From NCBI GenBank assembly GCA_028713975.1, contig JAQTNE010000006.1:98614-162613 (forward strand): a stretch of DNA of 64,000 nt, written 5' to 3'. Each line of letters opens with the position of its first letter. Positions within the stretch are counted from its first letter, which is position 1. Position numbers and translations under genes: made by a program. This document shows positions 2,438-64,000 of the stretch, in pieces. The notes below the pieces were generated by a model, which saw only the letters and a list, made by a program, of their open reading frames with translations, was not told the origin of the DNA and did no database searches. The stretch is from Sulfuricella sp. Its GTDB lineage: Bacteria > Pseudomonadota > Gammaproteobacteria > Burkholderiales > Sulfuricellaceae.

Positions 2438-3838
2438 GTGATGCCCTCCTCTGATCGTTGGAATGGCTTTCTGCGAGAATGCGGCGAAGCGGTTGCCGCT
2501 GCCGCCCCCTGGATCGTGACTGGTCGTTTGACACGGGTTGCCGGCTTGGTGATGGAAGCGGTGGGCCTGAGGCTTGCGGTGGGCGCCAGTTGCACCGTCC
2601 ATCTGCCCGACGGCCATGATGTTGACGCCGAGGTGGTTGGCTTTTCCGGCGAGAAGCTGTTTCTCATGCCATCTACCGATGTATACGGATTGGTGCCGGG
2701 TGCCAGGGTGACGCCGGCGGATACGCTGACGCAGCGCACTCCCGGGCAGGGAGGAAGGCTTCCCCGCCGACGGCGTTCCGAAGCCGGGGTGCGCCAGGTA
2801 CAGGTGGGCAGCGAATTGCTGGGGCGCATTCTCGACGGTGCCGGTCGCCCGCTCGACCGGCTCGGGTTGCCACACCTGGAACACCAGGTGCCGCTCAATA
2901 GCCGTTCTTGCAATCCTCTTGGCCGTGCGCCAATCCGTGATGTTCTGGATGTCGGCGTGCGCGCCATTAATGCGTTGCTGACCGTTGGCCGCGGGCAGCG
3001 CATGGGATTGTTCGCCGGTAGCGGCGTCGGCAAGAGCATCCTGCTCGGTATGATGGCGCGTTTCACCAGCGCCGATGTGATTGTGGTCGGGCTGATCGGC
3101 GAACGCGGACGTGAAGTCAAGGAGTTCATTGAAAACATACTGGGGCCGGCAGGGCTGGCGCGCTCCGTGGTGGTCGCCGCGCCGGCTGACACCCCGCCGT
3201 TGCTGCGACTTCATGGCGCGGCCTATGCCACGGCGATCGCCGAATATTTTCGCGACCAGGGCAAACATGTGCTGCTGATCATGGATTCGCTCACGCGCTA
3301 TGCCATGGCACAACGTGAAATTGCGCTGGCCATCGGCGAGCCGCCGGCAACCAAAGGTTATCCACCATCGGTGTTTGCCAAGTTGCCGCAACTGGTTGAG
3401 CGTGCCGGTAACGGCCAGGTTGGCGGAGGATCCATTACGGCGTTTTATACCGTGCTGGTGGAGGGGGATGACCAGCAGGATCCGATCGCGGACAGCGCCC
3501 GCGCCATTCTGGATGGCCACATTGTGTTGTCGCGCGGTCTCGCCGATCAAGGTCATTATCCCGCCATCGATATTGAAGCCTCGGTCAGCCGGGCGATTAC
3601 CGAATTGCTTGAGCCGCAAGACCTGGTTCGGGTGCGCCGGTTCAAGCAGCTTTACTCCCGCTTTCAGCGCAGCCGGGATCTGATCAGTGTTGGTGCTTAC
3701 GTGAAAGGCAGCGATTCGCTGCTGGATGAGGCGATAGCACTATACCCGCAGATGGAGGCTTTTCTGCAACAGGATATGCACCAGAGCCAGAGTTATGGCG
3801 AAAGCCGCGACTATCTGTCCGCATTGTTCAATGCGTAA
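2438..3838 (+). CDS. fliI: Flagellum-specific ATPase FliI
   Basis: Walker [44 protein letters not shown]. Confidence 0.97.
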
Positions 3839-3857
3839 GCGCGGAACCTGAAACGAA

Positions 3858-4319
3858 ATGCCCCGGCGATTTCCGCTTCAACCCCTTCTCGATCTTGCCC
3901 AGAATCATACCGATGCCGCAGCGCGGAATTTGCATCTGCTCAAGGTGGCATGGCAGGGGGCGGAGGAAAAGCTCCGGCAATTGACCGCTTACCGGGAAGA
4001 TTATCGGGCACGCCTATTGCAAGCAACAAAAATGGGAATGCAGGTGAATTCGCTCAAGGATTTCCAATCGTTTCTCGGCAAGCTCGAAATCGCCATCCGC
4101 CAGCAGGCGGAAGAGGTGGGGCACTGCAAAAAACGTTGGGAAGACGGGCGGCACGAGTGGCAGGAAAAACAGCGTAAGCTCAAAGCTTTTGATACCCTGT
4201 CGTTGCGCCATCAGAACAGCGAACGGAAGCGCGAGGACAAGCTTGAACAGCGTGAACAGGACGAGCTTTCCGGCAAAAAATTTGAGCAGGGGGAGCCAAA
4301 GGATACTCCCCACTCCTGA
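3858..4319 (+). CDS. fliJ: Flagellar export protein FliJ
   Basis: Coiled-coil small protein following fliI. Confidence 0.88.
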   Translation: MPRRFPLQPLLDLAQNHTDAAARNLHLLKVAWQGAEEKLRQLTAYREDYRARLLQATKMGMQVNSLKDFQSFLGKLEIAIRQQAEEVGHCKKRWEDGRHEWQEKQRKLKAFDTLSLRHQNSERKREDKLEQREQDELSGKKFEQGEPKDTPHS

Positions 4320-4322
4320 AAG

Positions 4323-4337
4323 TGGCATGCGTTTTGC
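4323..4337 (+). promoter_or_regulatory. Putative sigma-54 promoter upstream of fliK
   Basis: TGGCATGCGTTTTGC: GG-N10-GC architecture, 39 bp before the fliK ATG. Confidence 0.55.
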
Positions 4338-4376
4338 TTTGTTAATCCTGAAAAACGAATTTTGAAAGGATGACCG

Positions 4377-5705
4377 ATGCCACAATTACCCGTTTCTCCC
4401 GTTGTATCCCAGCCGTCTGGTGCCGGCGTCGGCCAGTCATCTGCTTCTTCTGCCTCGGGCTCGGACGGCGGAACCGGATTGGATGGCGCGCAAGGGCAAA
4501 ATTTTGGTGAGGTTCTTACCAAACAGATGAAAGAGGCATCCAAGGCCACTGCCAGCGAAGGTGGTGAGACTGCCGGGAAGCCCGACGCATCGGCGGTTTT
4601 CCCTGTTGATTTCTCCATGCTGATCGCTTCGTCACCCGCACCGGTGGCCGCTATCCAGGCAGAAGGGTCTGATGCCGTGATAGCAGATGAGACGACGGTT
4701 ACACCGACCGTGATAGCAGCCGAGACGGCGATTATGCCGGTTGTGACGACGGACGAGACGGCTGTCACATTAGCCAAGGCGGCAGTTATGCCGACCGCAG
4801 TACCGGCTGAATCCGGCCTGAATAAATCATTGGCACGTTCTTCACGAACTGTGGAGGATGGCGGCGACGAGCCGGCAGAAGAGTCAAGTGCGCCTGCGGC
4901 TCTTCCTGTCGATCTTTCAGTGCTGGCCACCCCATCGTTTGTTCCTGTGATTCCCACACGGATAGAGTCTGATGTTAAGAAGGCGCCGGTCGAGGCGACT
5001 TCGGACAAGATATTAACGCAGTACTCACGCACCGATGAAATTGGCCAGGCGGCAAAAATTGCCGGTGACGGCAAGGATTTGCCGGCGGCAATGCCTCCAG
5101 AGAAAGCGTTTTCCGCCAAGCTGGCGGCGATGGTGGATACTTCAGTTGACAAGGTAAGTACACAGCCACAATTAGCGGATTCGCCCACTTTTGCCCAAAT
5201 ATCAGCGACTGGGAGTGGCGCTGTCGAGCCGCTTCGACAGATGGAGCAGCAATCGTCAACGCTATCAGTCGCGCCCAGGGTCGGTTCTGCGGAGTGGGGC
5301 GGTGCAGTTGGCGAGAAAGTTTTGTGGATGGCGAACCAGAGCCACCAGGTGGCTGAATTGCATCTCAATCCACCCAACCTCGGGCCGCTCGAGGTGCGTC
5401 TGACGATTAACAATGACCAGGCTAGCGCCATGTTTGTTTCCAGTCATGCTGCCGTGCGTGAGTCAATCGAGGCGGCATTGCCGCGCTTGCGCGAAATGCT
5501 GGCTGATAATGGCATCACGCTGGGCAATACTACGGTTGGCTCGGAATCGTTCAGTCAACAACAGCAGGCGTTCGACCAGCAGCGGCGCGATGGTGGAGAA
5601 GGGGCGCGCGTCGATAAGGGGATGGAGGGCATCCTGGCCAGAATTTCAGGAGCGGGCCGGTCGACGGGTCTGGCACATGATGGCATGGTTGACATCTTTG
5701 CTTGA
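4377..5705 (+). CDS. fliK: Flagellar hook-length control protein FliK
   Basis: Low-complexity N-terminal region and conserved C-terminal Flg_hook motif (VAELHLNPPNLGPLEVRLTI). Confidence 0.95.
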   Translation: MPQLPVSPVVSQPSGAGVGQSSASSASGSDGGTGLDGAQGQNFGEVLTKQMKEASKATASEGGETAGKPDASAVFPVDFSMLIASSPAPVAAIQAEGSDAVIADETTVTPTVIAAETAIMPVVTTDETAVTLAKAAVMPTAVPAESGLNKSLARSSRTVEDGGDEPAEESSAPAALPVDLSVLATPSFVPVIPTRIESDVKKAPVEATSDKILTQYSRTDEIGQAAKIAGDGKDLPAAMPPEKAFSAKLAAMVDTSVDKVSTQPQLADSPTFAQISATGSGAVEPLRQMEQQSSTLSVAPRVGSAEWGGAVGEKVLWMANQSHQVAELHLNPPNLGPLEVRLTINNDQASAMFVSSHAAVRESIEAALPRLREMLADNGITLGNTTVGSESFSQQQQAFDQQRRDGGEGARVDKGMEGILARISGAGRSTGLAHDGMVDIFA

Positions 5706-61529: not shown

Positions 61530-61567
61530 TTAAAAAGTATTAGATATTTGCCGCAAATATCTAATAC
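61530..61567 (-). terminator. Intrinsic terminator overlapping the 3' end of the SIR2-STAND gene
   Basis: Minus strand GTATTAGATATTTG-CGG-CAAATATCTAATAC followed by TTTTTAAAAAATC; perfect 14-bp stem. Confidence 0.8.
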
Positions 61568-63854
61568 GATTCTGGCCAAACTGTTGCTCTGCTTGATTAA
61601 GTAGAGCGGCAACATGCTGGGCGATTTTTTCTGGAAATTTCCTTTGACAAATAGTCTTATGATTTCGAATAGAGTTGCCAAGCCCTCGAACAGCAACATC
61701 GAATGGGTGTATTTCCATTCTGCGACGATTGCTTGATGCAGCAATCGCGCGGTCAACGACATCCAATGCCTCGTATGTGTAATGCTCGACATCAGAATAA
61801 TTCGTGGATTTTTCGGCGGCGCAAAAGAGGACTTTCGCATATGTTGTCAATGTATGAGGGTGCTCCTCAATGCCTACGGCATGCTGAGCCCATATTTTTG
61901 CTTGTTCAATATTGGTGTCAAGTGACATTAGTGCTCGCTGCTCCCAGTAGCGACTGTTCCACGCATTTTCTGGTTGAGCTTTTTCGAAGAATTCCTCCGC
62001 CCTAGATGGCAACATCTGACGTACGCAACGATCATAATTCATTAGCCGTGCAGCCAATCCGGATTCCGGTGTTCCACGCATTATGGTTTTTCTATTTACA
62101 TAAGGTGAAAGTGCGCGCTCCAAACCTAGCAAATGCTCAAACCGTTCATCCTCATTCAATTTCTGTATCACATGTTCCGAAACAATTCGATGACGGGTAA
62201 CCAAATACTCGGTGGAGGCATAACGAACAATTCCTTTTAGATCGTTGTGTAGCGTCTTAAAAAAAAGTGCTGTTGAAATATTTGATGCTCTTGTTACTAC
62301 GGCTACTTTAACCGGCTCCCCAACGCTATGAGCAAAGGCGACGCAACAATATATTTTTTTTGCATCAGCATTAAGTTTTTCATATTCAGAACGGATAACA
62401 GTATTAAATTGCCCTATTGCCCCACCAGCCTCGACAATAGCTGAAATTAACTGCTTTGCAGCCATCCGTTGTGCAAGTTCGGCGTCACCCAAACCTGCAT
62501 TTGCCCCCAGCCGTCCTAAACGTCGCAATTCACCGGCCAAAGTGAGTGACTCTGGCTGTGTTAAAGCCTGTAAATCAACGCGAGTAACCTGTGCATCACT
62601 ACAAACTGATTCAAAGTAATCTAAACGCGATCTCCGTAAAGCTCCCAATAAGATGCAACGTTTTCCTTTCGCTTTCAAACCATCAATAAGCTGTGCTATT
62701 TGTGGCGCATGCTCATCTAAATTGTCAACTAGTAATATGGGCGTGTCTGACATTGAACTTAGTACATTTGTTGCAGCATCTTCGACCAGTCTCTCGTTGG
62801 CAGAATAGTGAAAAACTGTATATTTTAGGCGCGCTAGCTCCAAACCAACCCGTAGAAGTGCGGTACTTTTTCCTTCCCCCGCAGCAGAGTTGATTTCCCA
62901 TATTTCGGGAGCATTAGAGCTTGTATTTGAGATATATTCTTGAATATCTTTAATTAAGAGTCGTTCAGTGGTTCGAATTACATCCTCATTATTCTTGATG
63001 GAATACCATGTTGGTTCTGTACCATTTAGCAAGTGAAGCGGCTCAAGAGGAGTTGGTAGCGTATCTTCTTCTATGTATGTCCATTGCCTAAAGAATACCC
63101 TTGTGGTTTTGTCGTCAAGAATGGTTGTGAGTTTTCGACGCAAATTATCGCCATCCAATAGTAAATCAATTGGCCCTTTTCGATCAGTAACAAGGCCATC
63201 CAAATAGGCCAAGAATGTTTCTGATTCTGCCTCAATAGGAATAAGACCAAAACGATTGCATAGCGCAATCACTACAGCGTCGACGACCTTGGTTACAAAT
63301 AATGATGGAGCTATCTGCCGTGTTTCAGGCGTCAGTCCTTTTCGAGTAGCCAAGCATGCTTCTAAGTCTGGTTCATCTAAAGTACAGCCGATAATTATGA
63401 AAGGTTTCGAAATAAGTTCATCAGATAACACAGGAAACCACGTATACCCACCAGAACTAGTATCACCATATTCTTCTGAAGAAAAAACAAATCCGTGATC
63501 GCGTTTTTTAACGGAACCATGCAGGTGAATTATCGGTAATTCATCGGGGTCTTCCGGGGTTTGGAAGGGATCGCGAAAGGTTAAGAAATTTGGGTTTTGG
63601 AATTTTGGGGTTTTTAAATAACAATCGTTGAGTACGTCATCAATATTAAAGGTGTAAATTGACGACCATACAAAATGAGAAATTAGGCGCGTTCTGACTG
63701 CTGCCTCACAACCAGAAAATCTCTCAAATAAGAAATCGGATAGTTTTTCTTTGGGTTCAACTGCACCTGCTAGTTGCGTTAGCCTATAGTTGTTTGGAAG
63801 GCTAAATTTATTTGAAATCTCATTTGCAAGCTGATTCCCAATAGGTAATTGCAT
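61530..63854 (-). CDS. SIR2-like / STAND-type P-loop NTPase / TPR-like protein (candidate Avs-like antiphage defence gene), probably 5'-truncated
   Basis: SIR2 motifs TFNIDDVLND and IIHLHGS; Walker A-like EINSAAGEGKSTALLRVG; Walker B PILLVDNLDE; helical repeat C-terminus; AT-rich versus neighbours. Confidence 0.8.
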   Translation of the reverse strand: MQLPIGNQLANEISNKFSLPNNYRLTQLAGAVEPKEKLSDFLFERFSGCEAAVRTRLISHFVWSSIYTFNIDDVLNDCYLKTPKFQNPNFLTFRDPFQTPEDPDELPIIHLHGSVKKRDHGFVFSSEEYGDTSSGGYTWFPVLSDELISKPFIIIGCTLDEPDLEACLATRKGLTPETRQIAPSLFVTKVVDAVVIALCNRFGLIPIEAESETFLAYLDGLVTDRKGPIDLLLDGDNLRRKLTTILDDKTTRVFFRQWTYIEEDTLPTPLEPLHLLNGTEPTWYSIKNNEDVIRTTERLLIKDIQEYISNTSSNAPEIWEINSAAGEGKSTALLRVGLELARLKYTVFHYSANERLVEDAATNVLSSMSDTPILLVDNLDEHAPQIAQLIDGLKAKGKRCILLGALRRSRLDYFESVCSDAQVTRVDLQALTQPESLTLAGELRRLGRLGANAGLGDAELAQRMAAKQLISAIVEAGGAIGQFNTVIRSEYEKLNADAKKIYCCVAFAHSVGEPVKVAVVTRASNISTALFFKTLHNDLKGIVRYASTEYLVTRHRIVSEHVIQKLNEDERFEHLLGLERALSPYVNRKTIMRGTPESGLAARLMNYDRCVRQMLPSRAEEFFEKAQPENAWNSRYWEQRALMSLDTNIEQAKIWAQHAVGIEEHPHTLTTYAKVLFCAAEKSTNYSDVEHYTYEALDVVDRAIAASSNRRRMEIHPFDVAVRGLGNSIRNHKTICQRKFPEKIAQHVAALLNQAEQQFGQNRIRYLRQISNTF

Positions 63855-63871
63855 CCCTTTCCCGTTTTTAC

Positions 63872-64000
63872 TGACTGAGCTTCCCCCGAAAAATAGTCTT
63901 CCAAGAGTGACGTAAAATATGACTCACATTGGAAAGGAAGACGATGAAAATCCCGAAGCAGGAATACACCGCCGAGTTTAAGGAACTGGCGGTCAAGCGA
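63872..64000 (+). mobile_element. Left end of an IS3-family-like insertion sequence with the start of orfA (ATG 63944)
   Basis: Candidate terminal sequence tgactgagcttcccccgaaaaatagtc; RBS ggaaaggaag; ORF MKIPKQEYTAEFKELAVKR... typical of an IS3 OrfA/HTH N-terminus. Confidence 0.75.

Follow-up and report, generated by a model that had tools for sequence, protein, structure and literature searches.

The end of the window (the stretch of 64,000 nucleotides of Sulfuricella sp. DNA that was analysed) raises the question of whether an insertion sequence (IS) has cut off the head of a SIR2 gene, and what has become of the two parts.

The two parts of a split SIR2-STAND gene

Contig JAQTNE010000006.1 (C6) terminates at the last base of the window (162613 of 162613), 125 bp inside an IS3-family element. 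On the minus strand, an open reading frame (ORF) of 774 aa (61530-63854), starting with MQLPIGNQLANEI, is identified by ORF and profile matches as the downstream fragment of the split gene. It encodes a SIR2 domain that lacks its first strand and the GAGxS loop (SIR2_2, PF13289; residues 65-172, 63339-63662, minus strand), followed by an nSTAND_NTPase5 domain with a Walker-A-like AAGEGKST (PF25199; residues 276-411, 62622-63029, minus strand, 76.8 bits) and about 350 more C-terminal residues, and the frame shows no other disruption. This domain order matches a STAND immune protein that has SIR2 as its effector. Two motifs read from the translation, TFNIDD and HLHG, are retained in this fragment and are assigned by homology to the catalytic Asn (T-x-N-x-D) and His (HG) positions of sirtuin-like NADases.

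Upstream of the first usable ATG, the frame (minus strand) continues through an in-frame remnant of the gene, SKNGKG (63855-63872), a V (GTC, 63873-63875) and the outward reading of the IS end, VIFYVTLGRLFFGGSS (63876-63923), until a TGA within the IS closes it (63924-63926). The initial annotation had read KNGKG directly before the MQLPIG start and no ATG, GTG or TTG before a TGA at about 63926; our frame reading agrees on both points, as no such codon occurs between this TGA and the M at 63854.

The left end of the IS covers 63876-64000 on the plus strand, with the inverted repeat (IRL) TGAGCTTCCCCCGAAAAATAGTCTTCCAAG and the first 19 codons of orfA (63944-64000, plus strand; MKIPKQEYTAEFKELAVKR), which are identical to the matching stretch of orfA in L042, a full-length relative. 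It was recognised by its identity to another contig of the same genome and to relatives: the 125 bases are 100% identical to C20:3-127, and are matched in many related genomes with 74-91% identity across most of their length. Because this identity to C20 ends where the adjoining flanks become unrelated, the left terminus is placed at TGAGCTTCCCCC (TGAGCTTCC), at 63876. The IS3-like orfA had been correctly noted upstream of the gene; the element does not end at the earlier TGAC. The right end of the same IS was found on contig C11 of this genome (C11:1-126), with the terminus TGAGCTTCCCTCTGTTTTTAGTCTTCCAAC as partner of the left end. The first 10 bases of both ends are identical and are followed by a common block, so that the two inverted repeats have TGAGCTTCCC and AGTCTTCCAA in common.

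In four related full-length elements (L042, L017, L018 and L024) the two ends lie 1285-1291 bp apart, within the 1.2-1.5 kb of the IS3 family, this length being taken from the relatives and not from the copy in this genome. The orfB of L042, beside an orfA of 101 aa, scores 366.7 bits to NF033516 (cut-off 160) and is a DDE orfB of the IS3 type, while in the window orfA is represented by its first 19 codons only. In orfA plus orfB, TGA..TCA termini, a length of about 1285 bp in relatives and a 3-bp duplication, the element resembles other IS3-family ISs, and nothing notable sets it apart. A third relative, 87% identical, lies at about 878-1625 of locus L003 (G000:C13:44055-47179); it is a decayed copy with an orfB truncated after about 130 aa and a right end that was not recognised.

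The missing head of the gene was located with the help of an uninterrupted homologue (77% identical) in a Nitrosomonadales MAG (JAHFRC010000003.1, L004), which begins with MIPSTYLDDVKSNVHAGRYSLLLGAGFSAESKNGKGVKLPIG rather than MQLPIG and carries GAGFS. Searched against the Sulfuricella genome, its first 50 residues matched, besides the known piece on C6, C11:130-216 on the minus strand (76% identity, E = 6.7e-10), at the start of that contig and after the IS right end. Read in the direction of the gene, C11 gives MIPNNHLDDVKNNIRAGRYSLLLGAGFSVV, beginning at an ATG, and ends with ...GTAGTC directly at the IS, and C6 resumes with GTCAGTAAAAACGGG on the far side. The GTC (in gene sense) is present on both flanks (63873-63875 and C11:127-129), a 3-bp target duplication within the 3-4 bp of IS3-family elements. 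When the contig ends that border the IS are paired in any other way, at most one base is common to both. By this criterion, a simple insertion was ruled out for C6 and the far end of C11, and likewise for C20 and each of the two C11 ends. Joined with a single GTC, the flanks of C11 and C6 yield an uninterrupted open frame of 810 codons, which is collinear with the homologue, gap-free across the N-terminus and identical at 580 of 753 residues. Since the joined frame is collinear with an intact, GAGFS-bearing homologue, the cut lies two codons past GAGxS, just behind the glycine motif as had been proposed; the motif belongs to the whole gene and is found on the C11 stub only (GAGFS), being absent from the 774-aa fragment. 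The dN/dS of 0.07 over the whole alignment of the joined gene with the homologue reflects how the two lineages diverged, presumably almost entirely before the IS inserted, and is no indicator of present function.

A proposed transposition and its alternatives

The split, the duplication and the reading frames are directly demonstrated by the sequence. We posit, with a probability of about 95%, that transposition of an IS3-family element split an 810-codon SIR2-STAND gene after GAGFS into a stub and a headless remainder. According to this model, the element (about 1.29 kb in related copies) would have entered the gene two codons past the GAGFS codons and duplicated GTC. The 5' half would have become a stub of 30 codons, with the native ATG and GAGFS, that runs directly into the TGA opening the IS terminus, while the 3' half would be startable only at the internal ATG (63854), giving a protein of 774 aa from which the first Rossmann strand and the NAD-binding GAGxS loop are missing. 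Against the earlier estimate of 20-30 lost codons, 30 codons lie beyond the IS, and 36 N-terminal residues are gone if translation starts at 63854. GAGXS is reported to contact NAD in sirtuins and to be conserved across the SIR2 domains of Avs5, ThsA, DSR1/2 and Ago-associated (short-Ago) proteins (PMC12931631). A SIR2 domain devoid of strand 1 and the glycine loop would probably fail to bind NAD, and the 774-aa protein should therefore be unable to hydrolyse it. By homology, NADase activity and phage defence would both have been lost.

The initial annotation had also considered that the gene might be revived from a promoter or start in the IS. Expressed from signals of the element, the fragment could yield either a chimera started within the IS (VIFYVTLGRLFFGGSS-VSKNGKG...) or, if begun at the ATG at 63854, a STAND protein that lacks its effector. 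In line with this, the frame at the IS end is open outward for 16 codons, reading LFFGGSSVSKNGKG where the homologue has LLLGAGFSAESKNGKG, and leads into the otherwise undisrupted 774-aa frame. However, a promoter scan of 63700-64000 returned no sigma-70-like site, and the predicted Shine-Dalgarno pairing at the ATG at 63854 is weak (-4.3; random median, -3.7), that of the native start being no better (-2.9). With neither a canonical in-frame start nor a promoter-like site at the IS end, revival is therefore quite improbable. A special form of it, in which LFFGGSS, encoded by the IRL, and VSKNGKG act as a substitute glycine loop after a non-canonical start or a frameshift in the IS, yielding a partly working SIR2 domain, appears far-fetched: compared with the native loop, the putative one is short by two residues, and FFGGSS simply results from reading the inverted repeat of the IS in one of its three frames. 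In our view, the likeness of LFFGGSS-VSKNGKG to LLLGAGFSAESKNGKG and to the sirtuin glycine loop is due to chance.

No contig spans both junctions because the interior of the IS is unassembled, and we infer the order C6-IS-C11 from the target duplication, the exact restoration of the frame and the ABC-F gene that lies upstream of the SIR2-STAND gene both here and in the genome of the homologue. An assembly artefact, with the junctions of C6 and C11 stemming from different strains or IS copies and the gene intact in the organism, could draw on the contigs breaking within the IS, on the IS left end that C20 also has and on the IS right end at the other end of C11. Against this, the two broken ends hold complementary pieces of the gene, agree in the 3-bp duplication and continue each other's frame exactly, and the assembly yielded no N-terminus in uninterrupted form, so that we regard an artefact as very improbable. 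The assembly may nevertheless be composite, with an intact allele coexisting in the population. That the gene natively begins at MQLPIG, where the ORF in the contig starts, and never was longer is practically out of the question, as L004 and the more distant homologues L006-L009 all have a GAGxS/GSGxS segment upstream and the matching segment on C11 already refutes it.

The neighbourhood of the gene and a second copy of the element

The stretch directly downstream of the ABC-F (ettA-like) gene varies between genomes of the genus (L028, L004, L049-L061). On C11 (L028, G000:C11) it holds HigBA at 220-1000, by appearance a cassette of the toxin-antitoxin type, and in L004 a DUF4160/DUF2442-like pair (by eye; 3740-4890), likewise resembling a small toxin-antitoxin-type cassette. 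The SIR2-STAND gene is located downstream of ABC-F in two genomes, and the site is a possible hotspot for such genes. In L004, a duplicate of the ABC-F 3' end (215 bp, 84% identical; 4656-4870) directly precedes the intact SIR2-STAND gene, an arrangement that would fit entry of the cassette through recombination at this end of ABC-F.

Contig C20 (L038, 1-3092), which carries the second left end of the IS, belongs to a truncated Wadjet operon: behind the IS end, it contains jetC from model position ~520 (to ~1111 of 1112) and then an intact-looking jetD. JetA (PF11855), JetB (PF13835) and the 5' half of jetC were not found in the assembly, which is 89% complete. At its other end, C11 shows an IS right end beside unrelated sequence, whose flank (GGA) differs from the C20 flank (CAC). 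No other flank of an IS right end remains, and this one has no partner target duplication, the state that a deletion bordered by the IS would leave. These data fit either an IS-bordered deletion of the start of the Wadjet operon or a contig missing from the incomplete assembly. Together with the split SIR2-STAND gene, they suggest that two defence systems may have disappeared from this lineage where one type of IS is now located.

The intact protein among known defence systems

The intact gene most likely encoded a SIR2-STAND NADase defence protein that is Avs5-like but not Avs5, and by analogy with Avs5 its function was probably phage-triggered NAD depletion. Avs5 (AVAST type 5; PDB 9nah, NF041814) likewise combines an N-terminal SIR2 domain (PF13289) with GAGxS, a central STAND NTPase and a further C-terminal part, and the SIR2 region matches its structure 9nah with E = 1.3e-9. 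Avs5 is, however, described with nSTAND3, whereas the only NTPase match of this protein is nSTAND_NTPase5 (PF25199), and in comparison with Avs5 the HG motif is kept. An assignment to Avs5 itself was rejected: the curated model scored 35.8 bits, over the SIR2 region only, against a cut-off of 1000, the PADLOC Avs5 models scored 17.5-27.8 bits, and nSTAND3 was not detected. The SIR2 fold is also that of ThsA of the Thoeris system (6lhx/8bto), the match covering the SIR2 domain only, and the GAGLS of 6lhx lines up with GAGFS in the intact homologue, a motif also present on the C11 side. ThsA, unlike this protein, is not known to have a STAND NTPase. The predicted structure of the intact homologue (from a two-row alignment) had a mean pLDDT of 39.5, too low for use. 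Homologues were present in 7 of 200 sampled related genomes, a sparse distribution as expected for a patchy defence gene; no relatives were found in viral contigs, and plasmids gave a single match (21%, Vibrio).

The locus thus illustrates how a patchily distributed SIR2-STAND gene was lost through one transposition, with the insertion resolved to the codons beside the NAD-binding motif. It also carries a warning for automated annotation, where the 774-aa ORF could pass as an intact SIR2 protein. IS insertions have been described in cas genes and, for IS1 and IS10, in defence gene clusters of 12 further kinds (Sheng et al., 2023; PMC10359306). As in those cases, a defence gene is interrupted, and presumably put out of action, by an IS flanked by a short target duplication; here, by contrast, the element is of the IS3 family, the target is a SIR2-nSTAND5 gene, and the case comes from a draft genome. 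Since inactivation of defence genes by ISs is already documented (PMC10359306), we regard this case as a well-resolved new instance rather than a new kind, and as a clear but ordinary example of an insertion switching off a gene that probably protects against phages.
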